From contig OY101120.1 in the NCBI GenBank assembly GCA_956465555.1, forward strand, positions 1,854,001 through 1,918,000: a DNA stretch of 64,000 bases, in the 5' to 3' direction. The stretch comes from Nitzschia sp. pyKryTriq1 (Eukaryota > Bacillariophyta > Bacillariophyceae > Bacillariales > Bacillariaceae). The position numbers were made by a program, and so were the translations under genes. Positions 6,299 to 63,092 of this stretch are shown here, piece by piece. The number at the start of each line of letters is the position of its first letter. The first letter of the stretch is position 1. The notes under the pieces were generated by a model that saw nothing but the letters and a program-made list of their open reading frames with translations, had not been told where the DNA came from and did not search any database.

Positions 6299-8110
6299 TC
6301 ATCGTGCGATAGCGACCTTCTCTTTCGATGCCTCCTTTTCTCTGAGAAAGAAAGGTATCTTCTTTGCTTTCGGTGCTTCCTTCCTGGTCGCCTTGGCGAC
6401 TGGTGCTGCCTTGTCGGAAGATTTGGGCTGAGAATCCAGAAACTCCTTCACAATCTTGGCGTGTTCGTAGCCATAGGTCACGCAATCGGGGAAAGCCACC
6501 CCAGTCCTGTAGTTTCCACAGACCCACAACCCAGGCAATTTAGACTCGGCGTCTTCGAGTTCCTTGATAAGTGGCAAGTGACCAAGTTCATATTGTGGAA
6601 TGGCAGTGGGCCAAATCTTCAAGCCAAGGACTTTTGGTTCCGGGGCGTCGTCCTTGAGCAAGACTGTCCGGCAACCCTTGTCGACTTCGGCAATAATTTC
6701 TTCCTCTGACAAATCGGCAAGTCCTATATCACGGGATCCACCGATGTAGTTCAACAAGAGATTATAATCCTTGGGGGCACGGCCGGGGAAAAGCGAGGAG
6801 CTCCACAATGTGCCTAGCGTTCGGACTCCTTCAGACCGAGGATTCAAACTTCCAAATCCTGGGAGATTTTGCAAGTTTCCGAATCCATTGGGCAATTCGA
6901 CATCCTTGAAAGAAGTCTTGGGATAAGCCACAGTAACAGCCGCAACAGGCGGGTGGTAGACACCGATGCGATCAATCTCTGAGCGAACTTTTTCGAAAAT
7001 ACTCTTGGATTCTGGCATGACCGGTTGCAAGACATCCGAAATCGAGTGGGCGGGTATTGTGGAGACAACCGACTTGGCTGATACAATCTTTTCGCCGCTA
7101 GGAGTTTGGAAGGTGACGGTGTAACCATTGCTTGTCTTTTCGATTTTGGTCGCTTTCCATTCCAAGTTAATCTTGTCTCCCATCTCCTTCGAAATCGCCT
7201 TGGGCAATGTTGACAGACCTTCTCTGAAGGATCCAGGATTTCCGTACTCAAATTCCACCCATTCGGGAGCTGGTGGCTCAGCCTTTCGTTCCTTAGAAAG
7301 CTCGACCTGTCGTTTGAGACCTCCGTAGAAAATGGCACCAAATTTATTCCAACCAATCGAGTAGGCAATGTCTTCAATCCGGGCAATCTTTGGCAAGGCG
7401 GCCTTCATGGATAATGTTTCAGGGTTTCCCGCATAAACCCCCGAAACGAAAGGATCAATGCACCGCAAAAAGACTTCTTCGCCTAGAGTACGAGTCACCC
7501 ACTCGCGAATGGTCTCCTCTTTTCCTTCCGGCGGCGGTGCATGCCCCACAAATGCACCGATTCCCGCTCGAATCCTTCCAGGCCACGACAAGAGATCTCC
7601 CGCCAAGGCAAACTTCATAACACCATTAGGTCCAAATACTAGTTCAATTTGTCCTTTTGGGCCTTTCCCGCCCTGCCCTTTTGGCAAGGGGTGAAGCTTT
7701 CCATTGTGATTGACCCATGGAGGCAAAGATTCATCGGCAAAGACTAGCTGGTCGTCGATTCCTAGTTCATAGGCTATTCGGACAATACTGGGCTGAGTAG
7801 CAAAGGAATTCGGCCCTTCCTCCCAAATAAAACCATCTGCAGTCTTGTGCGATTTGACATTGCCGCCTAGGTAGTCTCTGGCTTCTGCCAAACAAACATC
7901 AATACCAGCGCGATTGAGATTGTGCGCTAAAGTGCTTCCCGAAATACCACCACCGAGCACCAAACAGTCTACTTCCTTGTCGGCCTTGGCAGAAAGGGAG
8001 GACACCAGGCTACTCTCCGTTCTATGGCTGTGAAGCGGGACAAATGCATTGGCGACATGGAAGGAAGATGCCACGGCGACGAGGCCAAGGACACTTGCGT
8101 GAAATTTCAT
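6299..8110 (-). CDS. PPOX: Protoporphyrinogen IX oxidase, plastid-targeted
   Basis: A 603-residue intronless protein that oxidises protoporphyrinogen IX to protoporphyrin IX, the last shared step of heme and chlorophyll synthesis, using FAD and oxygen. The N-terminus is a signal peptide ending in A-N-A|F-V-P at residues 20-25, the diatom plastid-import motif, followed by a short transit stretch. The FAD-binding Rossmann motif GGGISG is at 53-58, with the acidic end of the second strand (LAEARDYLGGN) after it. EEGPNSF at 97-103 and the C-terminal PGLWVCGNYRTGVAFPDCV are typical of HemY/HemG-type oxidases. The last 45 residues are a lysine-rich extension. The other pigment gene here is phytoene desaturase at 41322-43154. 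Assignment is confident. Confidence 0.93.
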   Translation of the reverse strand: MKFHASVLGLVAVASSFHVANAFVPLHSHRTESSLVSSLSAKADKEVDCLVLGGGISGSTLAHNLNRAGIDVCLAEARDYLGGNVKSHKTADGFIWEEGPNSFATQPSIVRIAYELGIDDQLVFADESLPPWVNHNGKLHPLPKGQGGKGPKGQIELVFGPNGVMKFALAGDLLSWPGRIRAGIGAFVGHAPPPEGKEETIREWVTRTLGEEVFLRCIDPFVSGVYAGNPETLSMKAALPKIARIEDIAYSIGWNKFGAIFYGGLKRQVELSKERKAEPPAPEWVEFEYGNPGSFREGLSTLPKAISKEMGDKINLEWKATKIEKTSNGYTVTFQTPSGEKIVSAKSVVSTIPAHSISDVLQPVMPESKSIFEKVRSEIDRIGVYHPPVAAVTVAYPKTSFKDVELPNGFGNLQNLPGFGSLNPRSEGVRTLGTLWSSSLFPGRAPKDYNLLLNYIGGSRDIGLADLSEEEIIAEVDKGCRTVLLKDDAPEPKVLGLKIWPTAIPQYELGHLPLIKELEDAESKLPGLWVCGNYRTGVAFPDCVTYGYEHAKIVKEFLDSQPKSSDKAAPVAKATRKEAPKAKKIPFFLREKEASKEKVAIAR

Positions 8111-9751: not shown

Positions 9752-12202
9752 TCACAGACGTCCGCTTTTTCCGCCTAGGTCATGTTGGGTCGGTGGTGGC
9801 ATCCTTGCGTGGTCGGTGTGCGTCTTTCGTGTCACCCGTGTGAGTGGGTTGACACCAGCGGGATCCTCACATGCGCGATCTTCCCTGCTGTTGTTCACGT
9901 AGTAGTTTAGGATCCGAGAAGAAGCAGGATTGGACGCTTCGATGACATGGTCGTCAGATTGCCGAGCTTGCAGGAGGTGATCCTTGACATCCATTGCCAG
10001 CTTCTTGCCAAGCTCAACACCCCACTGATCAAACGAGTTGATGTCCCAAATGAAGCCTTGTACGGCCGTTCTATGCTCATAAATTGCAAGCAGCTGCCCA
10101 GTTGCGTACGCAGTAAGTTTTGGTAGTAGCAGAGACATACTCGGGCGGTTTCCTTTGAAAGTTCGATGAGGAATGAGATCTTCTTCGACACCCTCGGCGC
10201 GAACTTCTTCCGCAGTTTTTCCGTTAGCCAGGGCATCTGGTTGAGCGAAGAAATTGGACATCAGCTCGTCGTGAGAGCTGAGCATTTCACCATCCAGGCA
10301 CAGATCATGTTGTGACTGACAAAATCCAATGAAATCGCACGGGACCGTTTGACCCATGTGCAACAACTGAAAAAAAGAGTGTTGGCCGTTGGTTCCTGGC
10401 TCACCAAAATCAATTTCACCGACAGGATAGTTCACTTCGACGTTGTGTTTTGTCATGACTTTTCCGTTGGACTCCATGTCCAGCTGCTGGATATGAGATG
10501 GTAGTCGAAGAAGCGCTTCTGCGTACGGAAGGGTCGTACGGGTCTTGTACCCGAGGAATGAGTGGTTCCAGACTCCCAGTAAGCCCATGATAACAGGAAT
10601 ATTTTTGTCCAGAGGTGCCGTTGTGAAGTGTTTGTCGATGGATTGGGCACCCTAAAGGAGAAGGAGACAATGGGAAACCGCCGTGAGATGAAGAATATGA
10701 TTGTGATGTGTTTAGGGCAGGGAGCCGCAACCACGCCAAAATCTTACCTTGAGAAATTTCTCGAACAGGTCAAACCCATAGAGGAGGCTAATGGGAACTG
10801 CGCCGGCGGCACTGCAGACGCTGTAGCGCCCTCCAACCCAATCCCAGAATCGGAAGAAATAATTGTCGGTATCGATGCCAAAGTCTTCTACCTTTTCGGT
10901 GGCAGAAACAGACGCACAAGCTACCATGTGCTTGCGGACAACTTCCTTGTCGTTCCCCATGAAATCCCACAACCATTGTCGCATAGTTCGAGCGTTCAAC
11001 ATGGTCTCAGCTGTAGTGAAGGTTTTGGATACAATCACAATCAAGGTTTCTTCCGGGTCCAAGTCTGCGCATGTACGCTCAACGTCCACGGGATCGACAT
11101 TAGCCAGGAAGCGGAGACTGTAGCCAAGTGCTGAGTTGACGCCTTCGGGTTCTGTTTTCAACACCTCGTGTAAAAACTCAGGTCCGAGGTACGAGCCACC
11201 GATTCCGACAGAGATAATGTTTCTTAATCTCTTCCCTGTATACCCACGAAGTTCTCCACTTCGCACGCCTTCTGTGAATGCCTTGATTTGATCCAACACT
11301 TCATGAACCTCTTCCACAACATTCTGGCCGTCTACGTAAATTTCTTCTGTACGATCCGCTCGCAAGGCTGTATGTAAGACAGCTCTCTTCTCTGTGAAGT
11401 TGATCTTTTCTCCTGAAACCATCGCTTGTATCCTTTCTGGTAATTTCTGGCGCATAGCCAAGTCTTGTAGCAACTTGAGCGTTTTCAAATCAGCACGTTG
11501 GCGCGAGTAGTCCAAATAAACTCCATCGTGTTCCGCAAACATAGCCTCCGAGCGCTTCTCGTCCTTCAACAAGTCCCGAAGGTGCTGAGCTTCCATCGTT
11601 TCTTTGTGTTGTTGAAGCAGCTGCCACTCCGGTGTGTTAGATACCAGCAATTTCTCTCGGTCCTGTTCGTCAACGGCTTCCAAACCGTCAGGCGAGATAT
11701 TATTGTTGTTCCGCCTTCTATGCAATCGTTCGTGTACAAAGCTGGTCGTTGCTCGATGATGATGCTCCCATGCCACATTGGGTGCCAAACGTGGCGGCAA
11801 TTGAATCTGGGGTACTTTAACTCTGTTGTTTTCCTGTTGTTCCTGATGGCGATAATGCATGTGATCAATGTCATCAAGTTCAAACGATATCCCCCCTTCA
11901 ATGTGCATTGGAGCCTCGGATGGAACATCGTCTGCTTCTTCTGATCGATGAACGTGACGAAGGCCACTACTTGTACTCGGGATCGATGATGCTCGTTCAC
12001 CAGACTTCTGTGATGACGAAGAAGAGGAAGCTTCGGGACGATTCGTCAGCACTTGCAAAGCAGTGGGAACCGGTCTTTTTCGCTGTCCTCGCCCCAACTG
12101 TAGCAATCGAGCAGGGGACCAGGCTCCAACTGACGAAAGCGTCAGGCTGAAACAAGTTATTAACAAAAGCAAAGATGGGAAATAGTTAGCGTGTGGAGGC
12201 AT
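9752..12202 (-). CDS. GPI: Glucose-6-phosphate isomerase, probably plastid form
   Basis: Two exons, 12202-10748 and 10651-9752, flank a 96-base GT/AG intron in phase 0, giving 784 residues. It interconverts glucose 6-phosphate and fructose 6-phosphate. The sugar-isomerase fold is plain: [13 protein letters not shown] near 331-343 (phosphate-binding signature), [10 protein letters not shown] at 391-400, GGRYSVCSA at 457-465, and in exon 2 [14 protein letters not shown] (second family signature). The protein is far longer than the usual 550-600 residues because of a Ser/His/Asn-rich N-terminal extension of about 185 residues. It opens with a signal peptide ending in V-G-A|W-S-P (24-29), the diatom plastid motif with Trp at +1, so a plastid isoform is likely. 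A further 45-residue polar tail follows the core. Confidence 0.92.
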
Positions 12203-34561: not shown

Positions 34562-35755
34562 CTATGTTTCGGCCACCGCCAATAAGGCTTTTTCGGTGCT
34601 GGGCTGCAAATTGAATTTCACTCCAGCCAGCTCTTCCGACTTTTCCCACAGTAGCTTCGCTTTGTATTCGTCCTTGGCAAACGCGGGAAGGTTCTGAGCT
34701 TTCAATTCGTCGTAAAATGCTCCCTTCTTGAGAGTGCCCTCACCTCCCGCTGCCAGGAATACCTGTGTCGAGGCGCCCTCCGGGACCGTCTTGGTGAAAA
34801 GCGACGCAGCATTGAGCAAAACAGATTCCAATCCAGAGGGACCCTTCGTTTTGAGCTCGCTCCACTTCTCTTCACCTACGAGATAGCGCCCCAGATCTGT
34901 TTGAACCGCGCCCGGATGAAGACTGACCGATGTCAACCATGAATCACCCGCCGAGTCGGCGCGCCGTTGGAGTTCCTGAGTGAATAGGATATTCGACAAT
35001 TTGGACTGGCCGTATGATGTCCAGGCACCGTACTTCTTTTCGCCATTCAAATTGTCGATTTCAAGACCCTTTCCACCTGAAAAACTGTAAGCCAAGGAAG
35101 AAACGTTCACGACCGTTGCCTTGTCTCGGTTCAGGAAAGGGAACAGACCAGCAGTCAAAACAAAGTGACCTAGATGATTGGATTGGAAGGTTCGCTCGTA
35201 TCCATCTTTGGTAAGTTGGAGGTTGGGAATTGCCATTACCCCCGCGTTATTGAGTAGTACGTCGATGCTTCCAAGTCCAAGCTGTTTGTACGCCGAAGGA
35301 AATGACTTGACACTCTCAAGATCATCCAAATCGAGGACTAGATTGTATACTTTCGAAGTATCTTTCACTCCCTTCTGAGACAGGTATTTTTTCACACCGT
35401 CCACTGCTGTTTCTCCTTTTGACAAATTTCGGGAGGTTAGCACAATGGTGGCTCCAGCAGCTCCGAGCCGCTTGGCAGACTCCAGCCCTAATCCCGAAGA
35501 GCCTCCTGTAATCAATACAACTTTTCCGTCCATAGAACCTGCTGCAGGCTCGTATGGAGATGGTCGATTGTTGACCCGATCGTTTATGGCAACAGCGGCA
35601 CTAGCGGCACCGGCAGCCCCCACAACCACACCTCCGGCAGCACCGACCAGGAAGGCCTTTCGGCACAGCAGTTTCGCTTTGCTTCTTGGCGAGAATGCCA
35701 ATCCTCGAGCACCAGCAAGAACGCTGAGGAAGCTTAAAATTTTGAAAACTTTCAT
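34562..35755 (-). CDS. Short-chain dehydrogenase/reductase, plastid-targeted
   Basis: A 397-residue protein from the ATG at 35755, chosen because it begins a signal peptide ending G-L-A|F-S-P at 18-23, the plastid-import motif; the frame is open 12 codons further. A second hydrophobic, Ala/Gly-rich segment (about 35-55) follows. The SDR core is complete: cofactor loop TGGSSGLG at 83-90, NNAG at 169-172, catalytic Ser in VNVSSLAYS near 217-223 and Y248-x3-K252. The NHLGHF motif and overall layout match retinol-dehydrogenase/WWOX-like and protochlorophyllide-reductase-related SDRs. It lacks features that would prove light-dependent POR, so the substrate is undecided. It lies 3' to a phospho-lipid-binding gene with which it converges. 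Confidence 0.85.
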   Translation of the reverse strand: MKVFKILSFLSVLAGARGLAFSPRSKAKLLCRKAFLVGAAGGVVVGAAGAASAAVAINDRVNNRPSPYEPAAGSMDGKVVLITGGSSGLGLESAKRLGAAGATIVLTSRNLSKGETAVDGVKKYLSQKGVKDTSKVYNLVLDLDDLESVKSFPSAYKQLGLGSIDVLLNNAGVMAIPNLQLTKDGYERTFQSNHLGHFVLTAGLFPFLNRDKATVVNVSSLAYSFSGGKGLEIDNLNGEKKYGAWTSYGQSKLSNILFTQELQRRADSAGDSWLTSVSLHPGAVQTDLGRYLVGEEKWSELKTKGPSGLESVLLNAASLFTKTVPEGASTQVFLAAGGEGTLKKGAFYDELKAQNLPAFAKDEYKAKLLWEKSEELAGVKFNLQPSTEKALLAVAET

Positions 35756-36366
35756 CTTCCGCGCTCTTTCCGATTGATCAAATCTAAGCACAAGATACAG
35801 TATGTTTATTACTCGTACGAGTATAATATGTGAAATCGTCGAGGGGGGGGGATGGATGTGAAAGCAACGACTTCTATTGTGATCGCTCCTACAGTAGCGT
35901 GCTCCGAGAAGAAGAAGAAACCGATTTTGTTTTATTATGCGTCAGCTCTCATTTTTTGCGAGTGTGAGTGAGTCAGTATAAGTGCGGAAGAATGCGCATG
36001 CAATGCGCGCGGCAAAACTTGGGGGCAGGGTTTTGGTGGTGGGCGGGGCGGCGGGGCGGCGGGGCGGCGGGGGAGCGGCGGCGGGGGAGCGGCGGGGTGT
36101 TTGTGCCTATGTACAGTACATACGGTACCAGTACGGTAACCGGTATGGATACCGGTAGTGTGCGATAGAATAATAGAATGAATGTTGAAGCCAAGAAGTA
36201 TGTAGGTATGCATCTATTAGTTAGAGATAACACGAAACGGATGTTGGAACAATTTGAGTCGCCGTCGTCTCTCTACCAGTACGAATGGATTAGCAAGGGG
36301 TCGCGCGTCAAAAAGCAAAAATCCCCAAAATGGTTGTTTTTCAATATTCGGGATACTCGTCTAAGA
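35756..36366. other. Intergenic with G-rich repeat
   Basis: Between SDR and NRT2, both on the minus strand. It should hold the SDR promoter. A (GGCGGGGC)-type tract is at 36041-36098 and GTAC words at 36108-36137. No gene is visible. Confidence 0.5.
36041..36098. repeat. GC-rich G-tract repeat, G-quadruplex-prone
   Basis: Nearly perfect GGGGCGGC/GGGGGAGCGGC units. Many runs of three or more G separated by one to three bases meet the usual G-quadruplex pattern on the plus strand. It lies about 290 bases upstream of the SDR start. Confidence 0.75.
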
Positions 36367-41321: not shown

Positions 41322-43984
<2,663 letters not shown>

Positions 43985-48159: not shown

Positions 48160-48756
48160 ATGATGACAGAGGCAAGCGAAAGCGAGGACTTGGACTTCCT
48201 TGGGGACAGCTCCATGAAAGATTTGGCGATGCGCATGGATGAAATTGATAAGGCAATTGAATCCATTCATGAAGTTGATAAGGGTTCTCCAAAGAAGAAA
48301 GAGGGTTCCAACGAATCGTCTCCAGCGAAGGTCTCAAATTATTACGAGACACCAGAAGAGGCCACCGCGGAGGTTCAAGATGTGACAGTGAACGAGGATG
48401 ATGATGATGATGACGACGACGACGATGGTGATGCTAATGCCGGTCTCCATGATTTGCAGAAAGAGATGGAACAATTTGAAGCACAGCAAAACAGTGACGA
48501 AATCATCACCGTGTCTTGTGTCAAGCCAACTATAACGAGCGTCATCGGAATTTCTATGAAGACTTCCAAAGGAATAACAAGAATCGTTTCCGTCAACCCC
48601 GACGGATTGCTGGGAAACACCAATCTTCGGGCTGGTCTACAACTCATTCGAGTTAATGAGGCCGATATCAGAAATGCCAAACATGCCAAATTTATCATTG
48701 ATAATCATCCTGGTACCATCACCCTGGTGGCGAAACCCATGGCGACGACTCAGTAG
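48160..48756 (+). CDS. Small acidic protein with PDZ-like domain
   Basis: A 198-residue single-exon protein. The N-terminal half is helical, polar and acidic (poly-Asp at about 79-88). The last 85 residues look like a PDZ-type fold: GISMKTSKGITRIVSVNPDG, then LRAGLQLIRVNEADI, then KFIIDNHPGTITLVAKP, with the G-x-x-I-x-x-V-N spacing usual for PDZ. The classical GLGF loop is absent or altered. It probably binds a peptide tail or a scaffold partner. It converges on the UvrB-UvrC gene. Confidence 0.65.
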   Translation: MMTEASESEDLDFLGDSSMKDLAMRMDEIDKAIESIHEVDKGSPKKKEGSNESSPAKVSNYYETPEEATAEVQDVTVNEDDDDDDDDDDGDANAGLHDLQKEMEQFEAQQNSDEIITVSCVKPTITSVIGISMKTSKGITRIVSVNPDGLLGNTNLRAGLQLIRVNEADIRNAKHAKFIIDNHPGTITLVAKPMATTQ

Positions 48757-48957: not shown

Positions 48958-51900
48958 TTACAGACCATTGGCTCGTGACCGCCTCTGTCGATGGGAACGA
49001 AGGGCAAACCGGTGGCTTTCGTCGCGGAGTGATCGGAGCAATAACAGTGCGGCGGAATCTGGGTTCTCGTTCACAGGTTCCGAACTGTTTGGAATGAAGA
49101 CTTCTTCCTTGTTTTTAGCAAGTGATATCACTGGAACAAAGGCATTCCTACCCGTTGGAGCTGGGGCAGCTGGGTACTCTTCTTGCAGCAAAAAGCTGTC
49201 TTCTTGAGTTAGCATACCATTCAGATTGGATAGAGAAGCTGCTTCTAGGGGATACACGTGAGCCTTGGCCATGCCTTTCAGAGCAGAACTAAGTTGCCCT
49301 TTTCCACCGTCGATGACAACTAAGTCGGGCATCGCCCAAGGATCCGACTTATCAACCAGTCCACCCTCGCCGTTTCTCCAGACACGCTGGAAGCGACGTT
49401 CCAAAATCTCTTCTAGGCTTGCGTAGTCGTCCACCCCCGCCACGGTCCGAATGTTGAAGCGTCGGTAAAGGTGAGGAGCTGGTCGTCCATTCAAAAATAC
49501 TACTCGAGAAGCCACAGACACTTCCCCTTGGGTATGACTGATATCATAACATTCAATTCGTTCGGGAGGCTTTTCCAGAGACAGCATATCCGCAAGCTCC
49601 AGCCCCGCCGTCCCGTCGATCGATGTCTTGGGTACACCTTGAATCTTGGTTAAAGAGCGTTGGCCCGCTACTTCCTGGGCGTTCTCAAGGGCACAATGCA
49701 AAGCTCTTCTGTCGGCTTCTTTCCTTGGGCCTCGTCTAGCTGCTGTTCGAATCACAATCTTCGCATACTTTCGATCTGGTTCCACTGTATTTCGCGCAGA
49801 ACGGATTGTCTCCTTGAGAGCCTTGCTATCTATCAAAGGGTGCTGCACCAAGACTTCGTCGGGGAAGAATGAAAAGTGGCCACTAGGTGTGGCCTCTCCA
49901 GACGGATAATGCCGCTGGTCCAAGACCGTTTGAATTGCGTCTCCAAAGTCCTCGGCTGTATGCAATCCCGTCTCCAATTCGAAAGTGTAGGAAAATTGAC
50001 CTGCAATCAGACCCTGACGAAGTTGGAGGACATGGACAACATATATCGATCCATCATCGTCACTGCGCCCCACCGCAACGACATCACGACATAGATTGAA
50101 CTCTGATTCGAACAGATTGGACGCCTCTTCATACTCGGAACGAAGAGCCGGTAGAGAATTTGCACCAGGCGGTGCATTCGATTCGAAAACCTCCGACAAG
50201 ACGGTTTGAAACAGCCTCTGATACTCAGCTTTGCTCACCTCCCCATAGCGTGCTTGAAAGGAAATGGACCGTAAATCGTACTGCTCCTCAATTCCTTGTA
50301 ATATGGCATTAATTTCCGCGTAATGTGGATAGGGACCAAAGTACTTGTACTTTGATGTCTTTTCTCCCTGTAGCCTCTGTGGTGCAATTGTGAGTTGTGG
50401 GAAGGCATCTCCAATGGACGCGCAAATATACGGATATGATTCATCGTCTTTCAGCAATACATTGTAAGCAGGTTGGTGGTGCTTGATCAAATTGGATTCC
50501 AACAACAGCGCGTCGCGATCAGATGGCGTAATAATGAACGCAACGCTCTGTGCTTTCTTCAGCATCACCTGAATACGCGTGCTATGTTTGGCCTTGGGCG
50601 ACAAGTAGGACTTCACCCGACTTCGTAGCCGCTTGGCCTTCCCGATGTATAGAATGTTTCCAGAACCATCTTTCCAGAAGTACACACCCGGCTTGCTCGG
50701 AACATGATCTGTTACAATCTCCTCCTTGCTGTGGCTATCATATTGTCTTAAGGCTGGCACCATGATTGACTGATTCAGATTCACCAACTTCCCATCATGG
50801 CTCGACTTGATAACCTCTATCGGTCTTTCTGCCTCAATTTGGTCTTTGAGCAGGTCGAAGATGGACAAAACAGAGGAGCCTTCCGTGGACTTCATTTCTT
50901 TTTCGTGTTTTGCATTGTACTCAAGTTGGAGTTGTCGACGATGCTTCGTCGCGTCAATACATTTCTGCATGCTCTCTGTGATACGATTGGCGTAAAGAAT
51001 TGCCGACCCGTGGACATTTCTTGCCGCGCGGCCAATGGTTTGCAACAGTGCCGTCTCCGATCTCAAAAAACCCTCGCTATCAGCATTCAGAACCGCAACC
51101 AAGGAGACTTGCGGCAAATCCAGACCTTCTCGCAAAAGATTCACGCCGACAAGGCAGTCGATTTGCCCACTCTGCAGTGTTTGAAGAGCTTTGGATCGTT
51201 CGTGAGTATTGAGACCCGAATGAATATAACTAGCAGCAACATCCCTTTCAATCAGGTAATCCGCCAGATCCTCTGCGTCTCGTTTAGTCAAAGCCATCAC
51301 CAGTGTGCGCTCCCCACGCAAGGCACGGACCTGGATCTCTTCCATCAAATTTTCGAGCTGATTCTGGGTGGGGCGCACATGGATTTCTGGGTCGCAGACG
51401 TACGTGGGTCGAATGATCATTTCTACCGGATCATTGTCTGGAATGTCCTGTATCGCGGACAACTCTTGTCGGGAGGGTGTAGCAGATACAAAAATTGTCT
51501 GTGGAATTCGTTTCCAGAACTCCTCTTCTCGTAGGGGACGATTATCCAGAGCTGAAGGCAAACGAAAGCCATGTTTCACTAGCCGTTCTTTTCGTGCACG
51601 ATCTCCACCGTACATGGCTTTGAGCTGGGGTAAAGCAACGTGGGATTCGTCCACGAAGAGCAACCAATCACTACTGTTCGAGGAGGCACCATATCCAAAA
51701 TAATCCAAAAGAGTATCCGGCGGTTCTCCTGCCTCTCGAAGTGCCATGTGCCGACTGTAGTTCTCGACTCCCGAACAAGTCCCTGTTTCTCGCAAAAGCT
51801 GCAAATCTTGACTGACCCGTTGTGACAATCGGTCTGCTTCCAAGTGCTTGGCCTGTGATTTCAGTTCTCGAACTCGTTCCTGCAGCTCGTCTTGTATCCG

Positions 51901-53091
51901 TGTTAGAGCTTCTTCAAATTGTTCTGAGGAATCGGTCAAGTGGTGCTTGGCAGGAAAGAAAGTGGTGGTGGATACCGATTTCATTCCCATGGCGCGTCCT
52001 TCCGATATGGCGGAAATGCAATAGGGACCATCTATTTCGTCGCAAGTAAAATCCACTCGCATGGGATAGGATTCTGATGGAGGCCACAACACCAACGTCG
52101 CGCCAGTCGAATTTTGAGATAGTTGATATTGGCCTCTCGATAGATCGTCATTACTGCCACCATACCCAAAATCTGCATCGGCGGTGTCCTTGTTACTGGA
52201 CGGGAGTGTGTACACCGTGGCTTGCATGGCAGCAGTAATGTCGCGGATCGAATCAAAGACGGTTTCTCCAACGGTCCACTGCAAGCTGGCCTCGAGGTAC
52301 GATTTGGGCATTCCCATACCGTAGATACACGACACGGAAGCAACAATGACCACATCCGAGTGTTGAACCAAAGCCCGGGTGGCCAAGTGACGCAAGGCAT
52401 CCAATTCATCATTAATGCTAGACTTCTTGGCTGTGTACTTGTTAGTGACTTCATTGTAGGACTCGGGCACATAGTGGTTGTAATAACTGACAAAGAGCTG
52501 GACATGATTGTTTCGTAGACAACTTCGAAGTTCCCGTGCCAGCTGCGACGCCAGTGTTTTGTTGTGACACAAAACCAGCGTTTTCTTGTTCAGCCTAGCA
52601 ATCGTATGGGCCATGACATTTGTCTTGCCCGTGCCCGTGATCCCCCTGAGGACACTGAACTTGTCCCCTCGAGAAACTTGCTTTACAAGTCGCTCGATAG
52701 CTTGCGGTTGATCGCCCGTTGGATCGTAGGGTGCCGTCACCTGGAATTTACTCTCACAGAGATGATCCCCTCCTGGAGGAGTCTCAGATGATGGTGAGAC
52801 CTCGTATCCTTCGTCCAGTAATAGTGCTTTATCGTGCGTTGTTGTTGGCGCCGTAGAGACATGCCGATGATGAAGGTGCCTGTGATGATGATTCCGATGC
52901 GAAGTTGGCGGAACTACAGAAACGTCCTTCCGTCGAAAAGCAATATTGTTCGATGCCCTCGACGCATATTGTCGAATCCCGAACCCGAAAGCACTCTTAG
53001 AATGCTGCTGCAGCACAAGAAACGACATCAGCGCCATGGAGGAGGGCGGTTTGGGTCGTCGACGGCGAGACGAGGACCTGGGTATCACCAT
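48958..53091 (-). CDS. UvrB-UvrC fusion, organelle-targeted excision nuclease
   Basis: One uninterrupted frame of 1377 codons without introns. Residues 115-735 are UvrB: GDQPQAIERL, Walker A GITGTGKT (150-157), the YYNHY hairpin tip (203-207), ASVSCIYGMG, DESH (481-484), and QTIGRAAR (684-691). Residues about 793-1370 are UvrC: GIY-YIG domain with GVYF (802-805), LYIG (814-817), R-L-R-S-R, LLLESNLIK (Glu 865) and YNVLLKDD; then the RNase H-like nuclease with D1183 (ECYDISH), D1261 (VVIDGGKGQL) and H1360 (RDESHRFA). Missing are the UvrB C-terminal UVR helix pair, the UvrC cysteine cluster (no Cys between 890 and 1001) and the C-terminal HhH pair. A start at the Met of 53037 would place a signal-like stretch before S-A|F-G, the plastid motif. 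In bacteria UvrB and UvrC are separate proteins that make both incisions of excision repair. Confidence 0.93.
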   Translation of the reverse strand: MVIPRSSSRRRRPKPPSSMALMSFLVLQQHSKSAFGFGIRQYASRASNNIAFRRKDVSVVPPTSHRNHHHRHLHHRHVSTAPTTTHDKALLLDEGYEVSPSSETPPGGDHLCESKFQVTAPYDPTGDQPQAIERLVKQVSRGDKFSVLRGITGTGKTNVMAHTIARLNKKTLVLCHNKTLASQLARELRSCLRNNHVQLFVSYYNHYVPESYNEVTNKYTAKKSSINDELDALRHLATRALVQHSDVVIVASVSCIYGMGMPKSYLEASLQWTVGETVFDSIRDITAAMQATVYTLPSSNKDTADADFGYGGSNDDLSRGQYQLSQNSTGATLVLWPPSESYPMRVDFTCDEIDGPYCISAISEGRAMGMKSVSTTTFFPAKHHLTDSSEQFEEALTRIQDELQERVRELKSQAKHLEADRLSQRVSQDLQLLRETGTCSGVENYSRHMALREAGEPPDTLLDYFGYGASSNSSDWLLFVDESHVALPQLKAMYGGDRARKERLVKHGFRLPSALDNRPLREEEFWKRIPQTIFVSATPSRQELSAIQDIPDNDPVEMIIRPTYVCDPEIHVRPTQNQLENLMEEIQVRALRGERTLVMALTKRDAEDLADYLIERDVAASYIHSGLNTHERSKALQTLQSGQIDCLVGVNLLREGLDLPQVSLVAVLNADSEGFLRSETALLQTIGRAARNVHGSAILYANRITESMQKCIDATKHRRQLQLEYNAKHEKEMKSTEGSSVLSIFDLLKDQIEAERPIEVIKSSHDGKLVNLNQSIMVPALRQYDSHSKEEIVTDHVPSKPGVYFWKDGSGNILYIGKAKRLRSRVKSYLSPKAKHSTRIQVMLKKAQSVAFIITPSDRDALLLESNLIKHHQPAYNVLLKDDESYPYICASIGDAFPQLTIAPQRLQGEKTSKYKYFGPYPHYAEINAILQGIEEQYDLRSISFQARYGEVSKAEYQRLFQTVLSEVFESNAPPGANSLPALRSEYEEASNLFESEFNLCRDVVAVGRSDDDGSIYVVHVLQLRQGLIAGQFSYTFELETGLHTAEDFGDAIQTVLDQRHYPSGEATPSGHFSFFPDEVLVQHPLIDSKALKETIRSARNTVEPDRKYAKIVIRTAARRGPRKEADRRALHCALENAQEVAGQRSLTKIQGVPKTSIDGTAGLELADMLSLEKPPERIECYDISHTQGEVSVASRVVFLNGRPAPHLYRRFNIRTVAGVDDYASLEEILERRFQRVWRNGEGGLVDKSDPWAMPDLVVIDGGKGQLSSALKGMAKAHVYPLEAASLSNLNGMLTQEDSFLLQEEYPAAPAPTGRNAFVPVISLAKNKEEVFIPNSSEPVNENPDSAALLLLRSLRDESHRFALRSHRQRRSRANGL

Positions 53092-53782: not shown

Positions 53783-54985
53783 TCATCTTGCAATCTCTGC
53801 TGTCGAGCCGAATGCAGAAAAAAATGGGGACGTTTGGGGCTGACCTGATACGGCTGAAAGAAGGCTCTTGCGATTGATCCGGTATTGTACCGCCGTTTCG
53901 AGTCTGAAATCATGATCATGGCTCCTGGTACTGCTGTGGCGGCATGCATTGCGAAGAATCTCCAGATCCTCCTCTAAACTCGTTGCAGATTCTTCCAGGT
54001 ACTTTTGACATTCTTTCCGTAACGAATCATTCGTTGTTCGCACATCCTGCCATGTCACTATCCGCTTCGAGTCGGGAAGAGTGACGGACTCTACTGAATT
54101 CCGATGAGGCAAGAAGCCATAGTGCAGTAACCAATCCTCATTACTTCGAGAGCCATAATCCAGTGTCACTTCTTCTCCTTTTTGGACTCCTCTTTCACCC
54201 ACGCGTAAGCAAATACTATCCTCTTGTCGCTGGAAATATCCTCCACCTTCTTCCTGGGATGCGTGATTGGCCATGTCCAAAAAGGGGACAAGCATAACAT
54301 CGTCGCCCAAGCGAATAGTCCGAGAACACGTCAAATCCAAAGCATTCAAGAACGTCTGCCGACGTTCAGCATAGTCACCACAATGAGCCTCCCACTGTCG
54401 ATAGCGCCAATCCTGTACCGCATGGATTTGTGCCACAAACTCGTCGTGATCGAATTCTTTCAGTATAATTTCTTCGGACCAGTCACCCCGAGCGGGTGTC
54501 GACGGCGGTTCGGGAAGGGTTTGAGCGTAGGCTATCATGATAGGATGATTTTTGCCAACCAAAGTGGAAGAGGAAGAAGAAGAATATGGCAAAATATATT
54601 CCATGAGTCGATTGGCCAGTCGGCCAGTCCACTCGTCTTCGTTGCGGTCGGGATCTGATTCGACAATGGCACATTCCAATGGAATACGCAGTGCCAGTTG
54701 GCCCGGTTGTAAATCTCTGATTGCCACCAAACCCCGACCGAACCGGGTAGCACCGACAGAACAGTATCGTTCAGTACCGGGAAATTCTTCTAAAAGGTTC
54801 TCCAAATATTTAGTAGTGGGGACACCATCAGTACTAGACGAAGAAGAAAAATCCAGAGTGGGCGGTGCTGCAGACGACGACGACGGGAGAACGACAGTGG
54901 TGGCCGAAAACGCCAATACTCGACTCGACGACTTGGTCAGAGCAACAAGCACGAGCGCAACAGTGATTGTCACCCAATGGCTCAT
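53783..54985 (-). CDS. SET-domain protein methyltransferase, Rubisco-LSMT-like, plastid-targeted
   Basis: A 400-residue protein from the ATG at 54985, which starts a signal peptide ending V-L-A|F-S-A at about 23-28. SETD3/6 and Rubisco LSMT-type layout: an N-terminal GRGLVAIRDLQPGQLALRIP, a split SET core, VPFLDMANHAS, VTLDYGSRSNEDWLLHYGF (the NH and Tyr of the active site), and a C-terminal substrate-binding helical domain. Such enzymes trimethylate lysines in chloroplast (Rubisco, aldolase) or other proteins using S-adenosylmethionine. The substrate cannot be inferred. It lies head to head with the STK19-like gene across a 430-base spacer. Confidence 0.85.
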   Translation of the reverse strand: MSHWVTITVALVLVALTKSSSRVLAFSATTVVLPSSSSAAPPTLDFSSSSSTDGVPTTKYLENLLEEFPGTERYCSVGATRFGRGLVAIRDLQPGQLALRIPLECAIVESDPDRNEDEWTGRLANRLMEYILPYSSSSSSTLVGKNHPIMIAYAQTLPEPPSTPARGDWSEEIILKEFDHDEFVAQIHAVQDWRYRQWEAHCGDYAERRQTFLNALDLTCSRTIRLGDDVMLVPFLDMANHASQEEGGGYFQRQEDSICLRVGERGVQKGEEVTLDYGSRSNEDWLLHYGFLPHRNSVESVTLPDSKRIVTWQDVRTTNDSLRKECQKYLEESATSLEEDLEILRNACRHSSTRSHDHDFRLETAVQYRINRKSLLSAVSGQPQTSPFFSAFGSTAEIAR

Positions 54986-55419
54986 TTTGAGGCTGTGAAA
55001 CAAGAAAGGTTGACGACCGCGAAAAAAAAATACGATACTGTAGAGATAAAGGTAATTCGAAATGAAGAAAAATGAATTTAGTGGTGGTGGGTGGCGACGA
55101 GTGAAGAAACGAAAATGTGAGGGCGCAAAATCAAAACGTCATACGCGTGGAGTTGGTCTCGGTGGCTCTCGTCTCGAGCTCGCTCATCGAGCTCGTCGAC
55201 GATGACGACACTACTCACTCGTGCCGTATTTGTACCGTACCTGCGGTACCTGTACTGGTACAGTACTTGAACCTCCTTGCTTGTACCGGTACACTATCGT
55301 ACTCGTACCGTGTCCGTTACAGTACAAGTACAGTACAGAATGGTGTTGCAGTCTATGTACGATGATTCATCGTCACTGTGCCGGTATCTTCGTTCGTCCA
55401 TTTAGTTTGGAGTTTGACG
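54986..55419. other. Divergent spacer with GTAC array
   Basis: Shared upstream region of the SET gene (minus) and the STK19-like gene (plus). A GTAC array lies at 55228-55340; no gene is visible. Confidence 0.6.
55228..55340. repeat. GTAC palindrome array
   Basis: About ten GTAC words in 110 bases (TACCGTACCTGCGGTACC and following), 80-190 bases upstream of the STK19-like start. Irregular spacing, strong self-complementarity. Confidence 0.7.
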
Positions 55420-61329: not shown

Positions 61330-62138
61330 TTAGTTTTAGAGTTCGTAGCCCAACACTCTACTAGCAGTACCAGGTACAGTACGCTCTGGACACTGCATTA
61401 TCTACTCATAATTATTGTTGAGTTACAAAAACTGTTACCGACTGTCCATAGCGGCAGCTTCTACATTCCGCATTTACGAGTAGATGAAATGCAACTGTAG
61501 TAAAGTAGAAAAACGACTACTGGCAAGACGAAACAGGAAAGACACCGTCTGCTGCGACACCGTACAGTAAGTTGTCGGGTGGACTGTCTGTGTCAGTAAG
61601 TTAGCTGTATCTGTAGTACCAGGTACAAGTAAAGTAAAGTAAATTTTAAAGTAGTACACTGGCGAACAACAATAAAGAGCTCCTGTGAGGGAAAGGTTGC
61701 ATACTACAACGGAATTGCAGTGACTGTCCTCTGTCGTTCTCGTCGTCTGACAGAAGTTCTGAGCATATAGGATCTCTCTTAAAGGAGAGCAAATTCGTTG
61801 AACATACTCGTACTGCTACCGGTAGCGAGGGGTCTACTCTCTCTACTCTCTACTAGAGAGAGAGTAGAGTAGATTCGTACGTTGTAGAGATACTATTTCG
61901 AGTCTGATTTCACAACTAGTGCTTCTTGAAGTCTGGGCAGTCACGGATATCCACGATTCAAATCTACATACGAGTAGTGCGATGGTTTTCCCGTTTCCCG
62001 TGTCAACTGTTGACTTCGAAAACTATGTGTAACTGTTGACATTGCACAATGACGACGGGCTGCTCTCTCTCTCTCTAGGAGTTGTTGTACTCTTTGTTTC
62101 TTTCACACAAGCATACAGTCTACTGTAGAACCCAACCA
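61330..62138. other. Intergenic, palindrome-rich, no gene seen
   Basis: Contains GTAC words near 61369-61382 and 61615-61630, a perfect 12-base palindrome at 61815-61826 (GCTACCGGTAGC) and a near-perfect inverted repeat of TCTACTCTCTC type at 61833-61873. No gene is seen. Confidence 0.6.
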
Positions 62139-63092
62139 ATGGAGAACTCAGCATGGGTAGCGTTGCTTGTGATTTGTTTGAGCTTGTGTTGCCCAGAGCC
62201 TTCTTTGTCGTTTTCCCCGTCGCCGTTTCGACAGCAATACCTCCAAGGCCAAGATCCATGGTGGACGATCACGATGATTCGATCAACGAACTACCGCCAT
62301 CCCATGCCGATGACTCTTTATGGAAAACTGAGAAAGTCAACGTCGTCATCTTCGTCAAAATCTCCCATGGACTCTCTGATGAAAATGGTCGTACCAGGAA
62401 AACGCACCAGTAGTGTGGAATCGGGGATCGAAGCTGCTTTGCTCTTGACCGACAAGAGGCGACAGGAAGAATGGAAAAAAGATACGAGGCAAAAATTTCC
62501 TCTTGTACCATCCTTTGTAGTCGATGCGTGTATTGATTCATTGTCAGACGCATTTTCGTCCGTGGCACCTGCTGAACTCAAAGCGGTACTTCGTCCTGGA
62601 GGCTTGGAGGAGGCACGACCTAGACTGGAGGCAACGCTTGTCTCCAACCTAGAGAACCACCAAGTCATGAAAGGCATTCCTTTGAAAGCTGACGACAAGC
62701 GTCAGTTTCTTCAGTACTTGGTCAATATGTCGATGGGCTACGTACTCAGGGATGCCGAGTTGCTACTGGCTGAACCTAGTGTGAAACTGCAAGCCCTCGA
62801 AGTGCAGAAACAGGAAATTCAAAAGTACATGACATTCTGGCAGTTCACATGGTATCGAATCCGATATCATCCCTTACAAACGTCTTTACTGACGATCGGT
62901 TCCGTCTACATCGGCTACTCCCTTTATCAGCAATCGAAGCACACCGCCTTCGTTTCTGCTATCACTGGAGTATTCGCCTCGGTATTCACGCAAATCCAGA
63001 TCCTGACGAGGAAACTGTTCAAGATACTTGGACTGGGTAGCACAAAATCAACAATGAGACGGAGAACGGTGCGTCGTGTGGTACGAAAATAG
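62139..63092 (+). CDS. Plastid membrane protein of unknown function
   Basis: A 317-residue protein from the ATG at 62139; the frame is open 19 codons further, but this Met begins a signal peptide (NSAWVALLVICLSLCC) ending S-L-S|F-S-P, the plastid motif. The middle is charged and helical (DACIDSLSDAFSSVAPAELK), with a central LQYLVNMSMGYVLRDAELLL. Two hydrophobic segments near the C-terminus (TSLLTIGSVYIGYSLYQQS and FVSAITGVFASVFTQIQIL) look like a membrane hairpin, followed by a basic tail. No family is recognised. Targeting is inference from the leader. Confidence 0.65.
   Translation: MENSAWVALLVICLSLCCPEPSLSFSPSPFRQQYLQGQDPWWTITMIRSTNYRHPMPMTLYGKLRKSTSSSSSKSPMDSLMKMVVPGKRTSSVESGIEAALLLTDKRRQEEWKKDTRQKFPLVPSFVVDACIDSLSDAFSSVAPAELKAVLRPGGLEEARPRLEATLVSNLENHQVMKGIPLKADDKRQFLQYLVNMSMGYVLRDAELLLAEPSVKLQALEVQKQEIQKYMTFWQFTWYRIRYHPLQTSLLTIGSVYIGYSLYQQSKHTAFVSAITGVFASVFTQIQILTRKLFKILGLGSTKSTMRRRTVRRVVRK

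Follow-up and report, generated by a model that had tools for sequence, protein, structure and literature searches.

A diatom gene that joins UvrB and UvrC in one open reading frame, with eroded docking modules and cyanobacterial affinity

The fusion gene and its setting

A stretch of 64,000 nucleotides from Nitzschia sp. pyKryTriq1 (assembly GCA_956465555.1, contig OY101120.1, positions 1,854,001 to 1,918,000 of the forward strand; hereafter the window, to which all positions refer) was analysed for a gene which a previous, sequence-only reading had proposed to be a eukaryotic fusion of the bacterial repair proteins UvrB and UvrC. A Pfam search of the encoded 1377-residue protein returned Helicase_C (5.9e-18), UvrB PF12344 (1.1e-12), GIY-YIG (2e-9), and UvrC_RNaseH_dom (5.9e-43); NCBIfam returned uvrB with 713.6 bits for residues 115-751 and uvrC with 316 bits from about residue 794 onward. 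Motif and domain matches to both UvrB and UvrC within one frame are far beyond chance. The gene comprises the following features, all located on the minus strand:

48958..53091, minus: UvrB-UvrC fusion gene, a single open frame of 1377 codons from ATG to TAA
52759..53091, minus: leader, residues 1-111, of which residues 1-60 are basic (12 K+R, 1 D+E)
50887..52758, minus: UvrB core with domains 1a, 1b, 2, and 3, residues 112-735
52462..52485, minus: damage-probing beta-hairpin, residues 203-210, YYNHYVPE as compared to bacterial YYDYYQPE
51922..52305, minus: eroded UvrB domain 2 (UvrA contact), residues 263-390, carrying an insertion; the fold is still predicted
51640..51651, minus: DESH (Walker B), residues 481-484
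51019..51042, minus: motif VI QTIGRAAR, residues 684-691
50707..50901, minus: linker in place of UvrB domain 4 (UVR), residues 731-795, with helices partly predicted at low confidence
50461..50691, minus: GIY-YIG nuclease, residues 801-877, with Y804, Y815, R825, Y829, E865, and N877 kept
50089..50304, minus: site of the cysteine cluster and UVR of UvrC, residues 930-1001; cluster gone, UVR unrecognisable
49003..50088, minus: UvrC RNase H-type nuclease region, residues 1002-1363, with the triad D1183, D1261, and H1360
49148..49255, minus: in-frame, stop-free GT-AG stretch of 108 nt, a 36-residue insertion or an unspliced candidate intron
48961..49011, minus: C-terminus, 16 residues after DESHR, without (HhH)2, the paired helix-hairpin-helix

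The gene lies among eukaryotic-type neighbours. The 20 open reading frames (ORFs) scanned in the window include those for a GCN1/EF3-type HEAT protein, eIF3g, phosphoglucose isomerase (in two pieces), a SET protein, and a PH-domain protein. The frame, the domain matches, and these neighbours bear out the proposal that this is a real UvrB-UvrC fusion among eukaryotic nuclear genes. Furthermore, the two halves do not stand out from ten window genes in their G+C content at third codon positions (GC3; 0.52 and 0.49, range of the ten genes 0.44-0.62) or in the correlation of their codon use with that of the window genes (0.72 and 0.55, range of the ten genes 0.42-0.73).

The gene had been called intronless. 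The frame is indeed open throughout; however, the RNase H-type domain contains the in-frame candidate intron listed above, which coincides with the sole large insertion of this domain and has CTAAC 65 nt before its end. The spacing from GGKGQ to LAK is 57 residues unspliced and 21 residues with the stretch removed; in bacteria it is 19-22 residues (measurable in 37 of 46 rows). Within the open frame, GT-AG stretches of 60-200 nt with a length that is a multiple of three were counted 676 times; the stretch at 49148-49255 is therefore a candidate and no proof, and a stop-free 108-nt intron may be located here.

Catalytic centres and docking modules

All motif positions given in the sequence-only reading proved correct: Walker A GITGTGKT at residues 150-157, DESH at 481-484, QTIGRAAR at 684-691, GVY from 802, and D1183, D1261, and H1360. 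The UvrB half keeps 159 of the 197 columns for which conservation among 48 bacterial rows is 94% or higher, the columns of domain 4 being counted, and the catalytic residues of the ATPase are invariant in an alignment with 31 UvrB relatives. Beta-hairpin residues Y92, Y93, and Y96 are kept as Y203, Y204, and Y207, and Y95 is replaced by His (H206); the roles of these residues were taken from the available part of PMC6750098. An AlphaFold model of the UvrB part had a mean predicted local distance difference test score (pLDDT) of 81.8 and matched best chain B of 3uwx, the UvrB of a UvrA-UvrB complex (E 1.1e-69, TMt 0.92).

In the UvrC half, 49 of the 59 columns conserved in at least 94% of 46 bacterial rows are kept, the catalytic residues of both nucleases are invariant in an alignment with 33 UvrC relatives, and the TIGR00194 cut-off was passed (316 bits, cut-off 285.45). 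The model of this part had a mean pLDDT of 76 and a predicted TM-score (pTM) of 0.51; its best matches were C-terminal halves of UvrC and GIY-YIG domains, with 1yd6 chain B for the GIY-YIG nuclease (TMt 0.90) and 8b0q for the RNase H-type region (E 1.7e-12). The models support the individual catalytic modules, the relative placement of the modules being unreliable.

UvrB domain 2 contacts UvrA, and its Pfam family is named the UvrB interaction domain. This domain is by far the most divergent part of the UvrB half: its mean identity to 20 cyanobacterial rows was 22% with gaps counted and 28% with gaps excluded, as compared to 51-60% for the other UvrB domains of the fusion. For the cyanobacterial rows themselves, identity in domain 2 to 28 other rows was 43-44%, and the most distant bacterial pair reached 27%, about equal to the gap-free value of the fusion. 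UvrB_inter (PF17757) was found above its cut-off in 31 of 32 aligned UvrB sequences, the fusion being the sole miss; the whole protein gave no match, and the domain 2 stretch searched alone gave a weak one (0.00069, 20.1 bits) below the cut-off of 22.9. The strands of domain 2 are nevertheless predicted in the model, with a block pLDDT of 74-83.

Of the two UVR modules, which in bacteria connect UvrB with UvrC, that of UvrB (domain 4) is absent and that of UvrC is unrecognisable. The linker stretch searched alone against Pfam gave no match, and the fusion was the sole sequence without a UVR motif both among 32 aligned UvrB and among 34 aligned UvrC sequences. The stretch from residue 917, which should contain the cysteine cluster, has 85 residues with one Cys; in 46 bacterial UvrC the median is 123 residues (120-129) with three to five Cys.

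The protein ends 16 residues after the last catalytic motif. Among the 46 bacterial UvrC this tail has a median of 72 residues, the lowest value also being 16. HHH_5 was found in 31 of the 34 members of the UvrC alignment A4, the misses being the fusion and two bacterial rows. Loss of (HhH)2 is thus not unique to the fusion. No HhH could be seen by eye downstream of the gene in any frame, and a plus-strand ORF ends at 48756. Additionally, two UvrC frames from genomes of the cyanobacterial phylum (L169 and L170 in genomes G031 and G045; 559 and 571 residues) seemingly end soon after the RNase H-type domain; hence, the window gene is not alone in this loss.

The sequence-only reading had described the UvrB helicase core as complete and joined to UvrC. 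The helicase core is present, but the UvrB half is not complete, as it has no domain 4 (UVR) and its domain 2 has strongly diverged; the UvrC half is incomplete as well. The catalytic residues are kept, and it is the partner-contact and accessory modules that are most clearly lost; this loss or erosion of docking domains is the most telling trait of the gene. As compared to bacterial UvrB (TIGR00631, PF12344), the superfamily 2 helicase core, beta-hairpin, motifs, and predicted fold are alike, whereas the fusion differs by the missing domain 4, the eroded domain 2 with its insertion, the exchange of Y95 for His, the attached UvrC, the leader, and a score below cut-off. Both nucleases of bacterial UvrC (TIGR00194), GIY-YIG and RNase H-type, are present with every catalytic residue listed; in contrast to bacterial UvrC, the fusion lacks the cysteine cluster, a recognisable UVR, and (HhH)2, and is no separate protein.

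Besides its basic residues, the leader has a hydrophobic stretch, SSMALMSFLVL, at residues 17-27, followed by SKSA/FGFG. Judged by eye, these traits agree with the organelle-type leader assumed previously. In diatoms and related algae, an AF-P-like motif after a hydrophobic signal marks proteins for import into the plastid. By eye, the leader resembles a diatom signal peptide with an ASAFAP-type cleavage motif; its layout, MALMSFLVLQQHSKSA and then FGFG, is similar to the AF-P-like presequences of its window neighbours, and weaker. Among 12 N-termini of window ORFs, four showed a hydrophobic signal and then an AF-P-like motif (ANAFVP, GLAFSP, LAFSAT, and LSFSPS). The fusion protein may well be imported into the plastid. 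Diatom-style plastid presequences with such a motif were noted at window positions 6299-8110 (minus), 34562-35791 (minus), 53783-55003 (minus), and 62082-63092 (plus).

Ancestry of the two halves and search for other fusions

Maximum-likelihood trees were calculated from selected subsets of the fetched loci (47 rows for UvrC, 49 for UvrB, and 38 for the concatenation), red algae being left out. Rows were termed cyanobacterial if they shared a phylum with the Synechococcus genome G005 or stemmed from loci with cyanobacterial record titles; a named record was available for 4 of 22 (UvrC), 3 of 20 (UvrB), and 3 of 16 (concatenated) of these rows. The UvrC half was sister to the 22 cyanobacterial rows (95/97), the UvrB half grouped with the 20 cyanobacterial rows (99/89), and in the concatenated tree the fusion and the 16 cyanobacterial rows formed one group (100/97). 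A bacterial origin, as had been assumed, was thereby supported, with separate trees of the two halves both pointing to cyanobacteria. The approximately unbiased (AU) test rejected a place of UvrC outside the cyanobacterial and Melainabacteria-type rows (p 0.027); the latter comprised three UvrC rows, namely a Melainabacteria metagenome-assembled genome (MAG; L084/L171) and L169 and L170, which were so labelled by us on account of a low score and a small genome. A mitochondrial (alphaproteobacterial) origin, represented by grouping the fusion with a single Azospirillum row, was weakly rejected (AU p 0.041).

Similarity scores were analysed among the matches listed. Among 28 genomes from many phyla, the top individual match was cyanobacterial for UvrB as well as for UvrC. 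Across 146 genomes of the G005 phylum, UvrB matches reached up to 606 bits and 52% identity; many members of this phylum scored 511-545 bits, like other bacteria, and the best UvrB score outside the phylum was 558 bits. For the UvrC half, the cyanobacterial rows used gave summed BLAST scores of 226-290 bits, and the highest score of any other row was 249 bits; these ranges overlap, so score alone separates UvrC less well. Both halves are apparently cyanobacterial, and gene transfer from the ancestor of the plastid is the simplest, not a proven, reading. As a separate observation, one cyanobacterial UvrB ORF (L060:955-4287, 1110 residues) matched the query in two parts broken at Walker A (query residues 112-157 and then 156-746); about 436 extra residues lie within the break, as an intein would give.

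No place with both halves was found among the matches listed in 288 genome entries (overlapping sets); in one genome set, 13 of 118 genomes had no match at threshold. Wherever both genes were located in a genome of the cyanobacterial phylum (27 of 27), uvrB and uvrC are either on separate contigs or separated by about 11 kb or more; a 28th genome (G078) had no uvrC match at threshold. The scan of contig loci covered the best 80 of at least 583 relatives. Four loci covering both halves (L006, L007, L016, and L066) were considered as candidate bacterial fusions, and each proved to consist of two ORFs. Eight further stretches with long open frames were also rejected: six (L230-L235) are uvrB and uvrC ORFs in tandem, L236 has a UvrB and a uvrC match that lies in a different frame, and L237 shows UvrB only. 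The tandem genes share one frame and are separated by stop codons in L006, L007, L016, and L230-L235, and are out of frame in L066.

The viral, phage, and plasmid sequences searched likewise showed no fusion. In IMG/VR, query P0001 gave no match, and query A1 gave 29 UvrB loci, none of which matched beyond query residue 745. Neither the phage records (67) nor the plasmid records (238) contained a place covering 80% of the query. Two IMG/VR contigs of 78 and 59 kb carry full-length UvrB relatives (L216 and L224) with only 36% identity to the query.

In the open-licence literature of PubMed Central no description of a UvrB-UvrC fusion, or of UvrB or UvrC in diatoms, was found. The assertion that no eukaryotic fusion had been described thus held within this literature; annotated but undiscussed relatives may exist. 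In their available parts, a review from 2020 states that nucleotide excision repair is seemingly absent from organelles and that flowering plants have no homologs of UvrA, UvrB, or UvrC (PMC6981420), and the table of a 2006 survey gives UvrC for bacteria and archaea only, with UvrC-like rows without eukaryotic members (PMC1564403). According to the available text of a paper from 2024, all eukaryotes lack UvrABC genes (PMC11228841); a eukaryotic gene for UvrB and UvrC runs counter to this statement.

Proposed working and alternative readings

We propose, with a probability of roughly 0.6, that this is a nuclear gene which descends from uvrB and uvrC of the plastid's ancestor, was fused in the eukaryotic lineage, and encodes a single-chain excinuclease imported into the plastid. 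Presumably, the gene is expressed and its product acts in repair. The UvrB part would load on damaged DNA, probe it with the beta-hairpin, and verify the lesion by its ATPase; the GIY-YIG domain would then make the cut 3' of the lesion and the RNase H-type domain the one 5' of it.

According to the available part of PMC7835731, contact between bacterial UvrB and UvrC through UVR-like segments is required for the pre-incision complex and for 3' incision, and the UvrB ATPase is kept inhibited by domain 4 as long as UvrA and single-stranded DNA are lacking. In the fusion, the covalent link would stand in for this UVR-UVR handshake, which would be unneeded because UvrC is already attached. As domain 4 is gone, an unrestrained UvrB motor is predicted; likewise, from the erosion of domain 2 it is predicted that UvrA docking is altered, lost, or dispensable. 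The sequence-only reading had held that bacterial UvrB and UvrC meet only on damaged DNA. This is contradicted by the available text of PMC5814901, which reports a complex in solution and joint scanning of DNA. There, E. coli UvrBC binds lesions without UvrA, which resembles the proposed working of the fusion in that UvrB and UvrC would act jointly on lesions, possibly free of UvrA. Cho and exonuclease-Cho fusions provide a precedent for a UvrC-type nuclease in a fusion, but these are bacterial, and the partner is an exonuclease instead of UvrB (PMC1564403, available part).

Several observations weigh against the proposed single-chain excinuclease. The main obstacle is that (HhH)2, which bacteria require for 5' incision (PMC7835731, available part), is missing, so that dual incision is not assured; furthermore, damage excision by UvrBC alone is not demonstrated in the available part of PMC5814901. 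The curated UvrB families were missed at their cut-offs (TIGR00631, 713.6 of 750.1 bits; NF003673, 728.5 of 743 bits). Hydrophobicity of the leader stretch at residues 17-27 is modest, with a Kyte-Doolittle mean of 1.96, and codon use of the leader is uncorrelated with that of the window genes (-0.01, 111 codons). Concerning ancestry, the place outside the cyanobacterial and Melainabacteria-type rows survived the AU test for UvrB (p 0.112) and for the concatenation (p 0.212), the branches of the fusion are long, some cyanobacterial UvrC (226-231 bits) score below the best others (249 and 241 bits), and most of the cyanobacterial rows were picked mainly by highest UvrB score, which could favour the grouping.

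A further step would be a protein which performs bacterial-type excision repair in the plastid as a single polypeptide and free of UvrA, having dispensed with the UVR handshake as well as with the UvrA contact to become a minimal, self-loading excinuclease. We regard this strict form as doubtful. About equally doubtful appears a classical UvrABC pathway in which an algal UvrA loads the fusion via a co-evolved domain 2 and only the step from UvrB to UvrC is altered. Such a pathway agrees with a domain 2 which is weakly recognisable and whose fold is predicted with fair confidence, with the best match of the whole model to a UvrB bound to UvrA (3uwx), and with the gap-free identity of 28%; as the most distant bacterial pair has 27%, the erosion is strong yet has a precedent. 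It is opposed by the extent of this erosion relative to the other domains (22-28% vs 51-60%), by a PF17757 match below the cut-off where 31 of 32 aligned UvrB match, by the absence of domain 4, and by the lack of a UvrA among the 20 window ORFs scanned.

Rather unlikely is a protein which no longer excises damage and, within the organelle, makes single incisions or clears DNA as a nuclease-helicase, for instance to turn over damaged plastid DNA. Such a role would fit the eroded UvrA contact and the absence of (HhH)2 and the cysteine cluster, the latter two being parts of a normal UvrC. However, every residue listed for the ATPase and the two nuclease centres is kept, as are Y92, Y93, and Y96 of the beta-hairpin, which argues for lesion verification and two cuts; moreover, two of the 33 bacterial UvrC in alignment A4 are likewise without HHH_5, so that its absence does not necessarily imply a new function.

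The tandem arrangement in bacteria suggests another origin, namely horizontal acquisition of a uvrB-uvrC operon and its fusion by loss of the intervening stop codon. Several bacteria do carry tandem uvrB and uvrC, often in the same frame, and those of the Smithella phylum, an Acidobacteria MAG, and a Bdellovibrionales MAG resemble the fusion in gene order and often in frame; they differ from it in encoding two proteins with a stop between, and they are not its nearest kin where tested. Grouping of the fusion with Smithella (L006), Deltaproteobacteria (L016), and Bdellovibrionales (L066) together with Desulfonema, which is not a tandem carrier, was rejected (AU p 0.004), the Acidobacteria tandem carrier (L007) being left out of this test. 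Both halves side with cyanobacteria, and in that phylum the two genes are apart in all 27 genomes; acquisition of an operon is thus improbable. Least credible of all is an assembly chimera, contamination, or a decaying pseudogene, in view of 1377 codons without a stop, the kept catalytic residues, the eukaryotic genes of the window, and GC3 and codon use of both halves within the range of its ten genes, and as a chimera would need removal of just the docking domain with the frame intact.

With the fusion gene, the question whether organelles excise bulky DNA lesions becomes directly testable in an alga. The losses of docking modules suggest a compact single-chain excinuclease and provide a natural experiment which may separate the parts of UvrB and UvrC needed for cutting from those needed only for meeting partners.

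Two further observations concern other genes of the window. Two genes of the flavin amine oxidase family (PF01593) are present at positions 6299-8110 and 41322-43154, both on the minus strand. The phosphoglucose isomerase at 9752-12202 (minus) consists of two ORFs with an intron-like gap between them, and CTCCTTTAG is found near the end of this gap.

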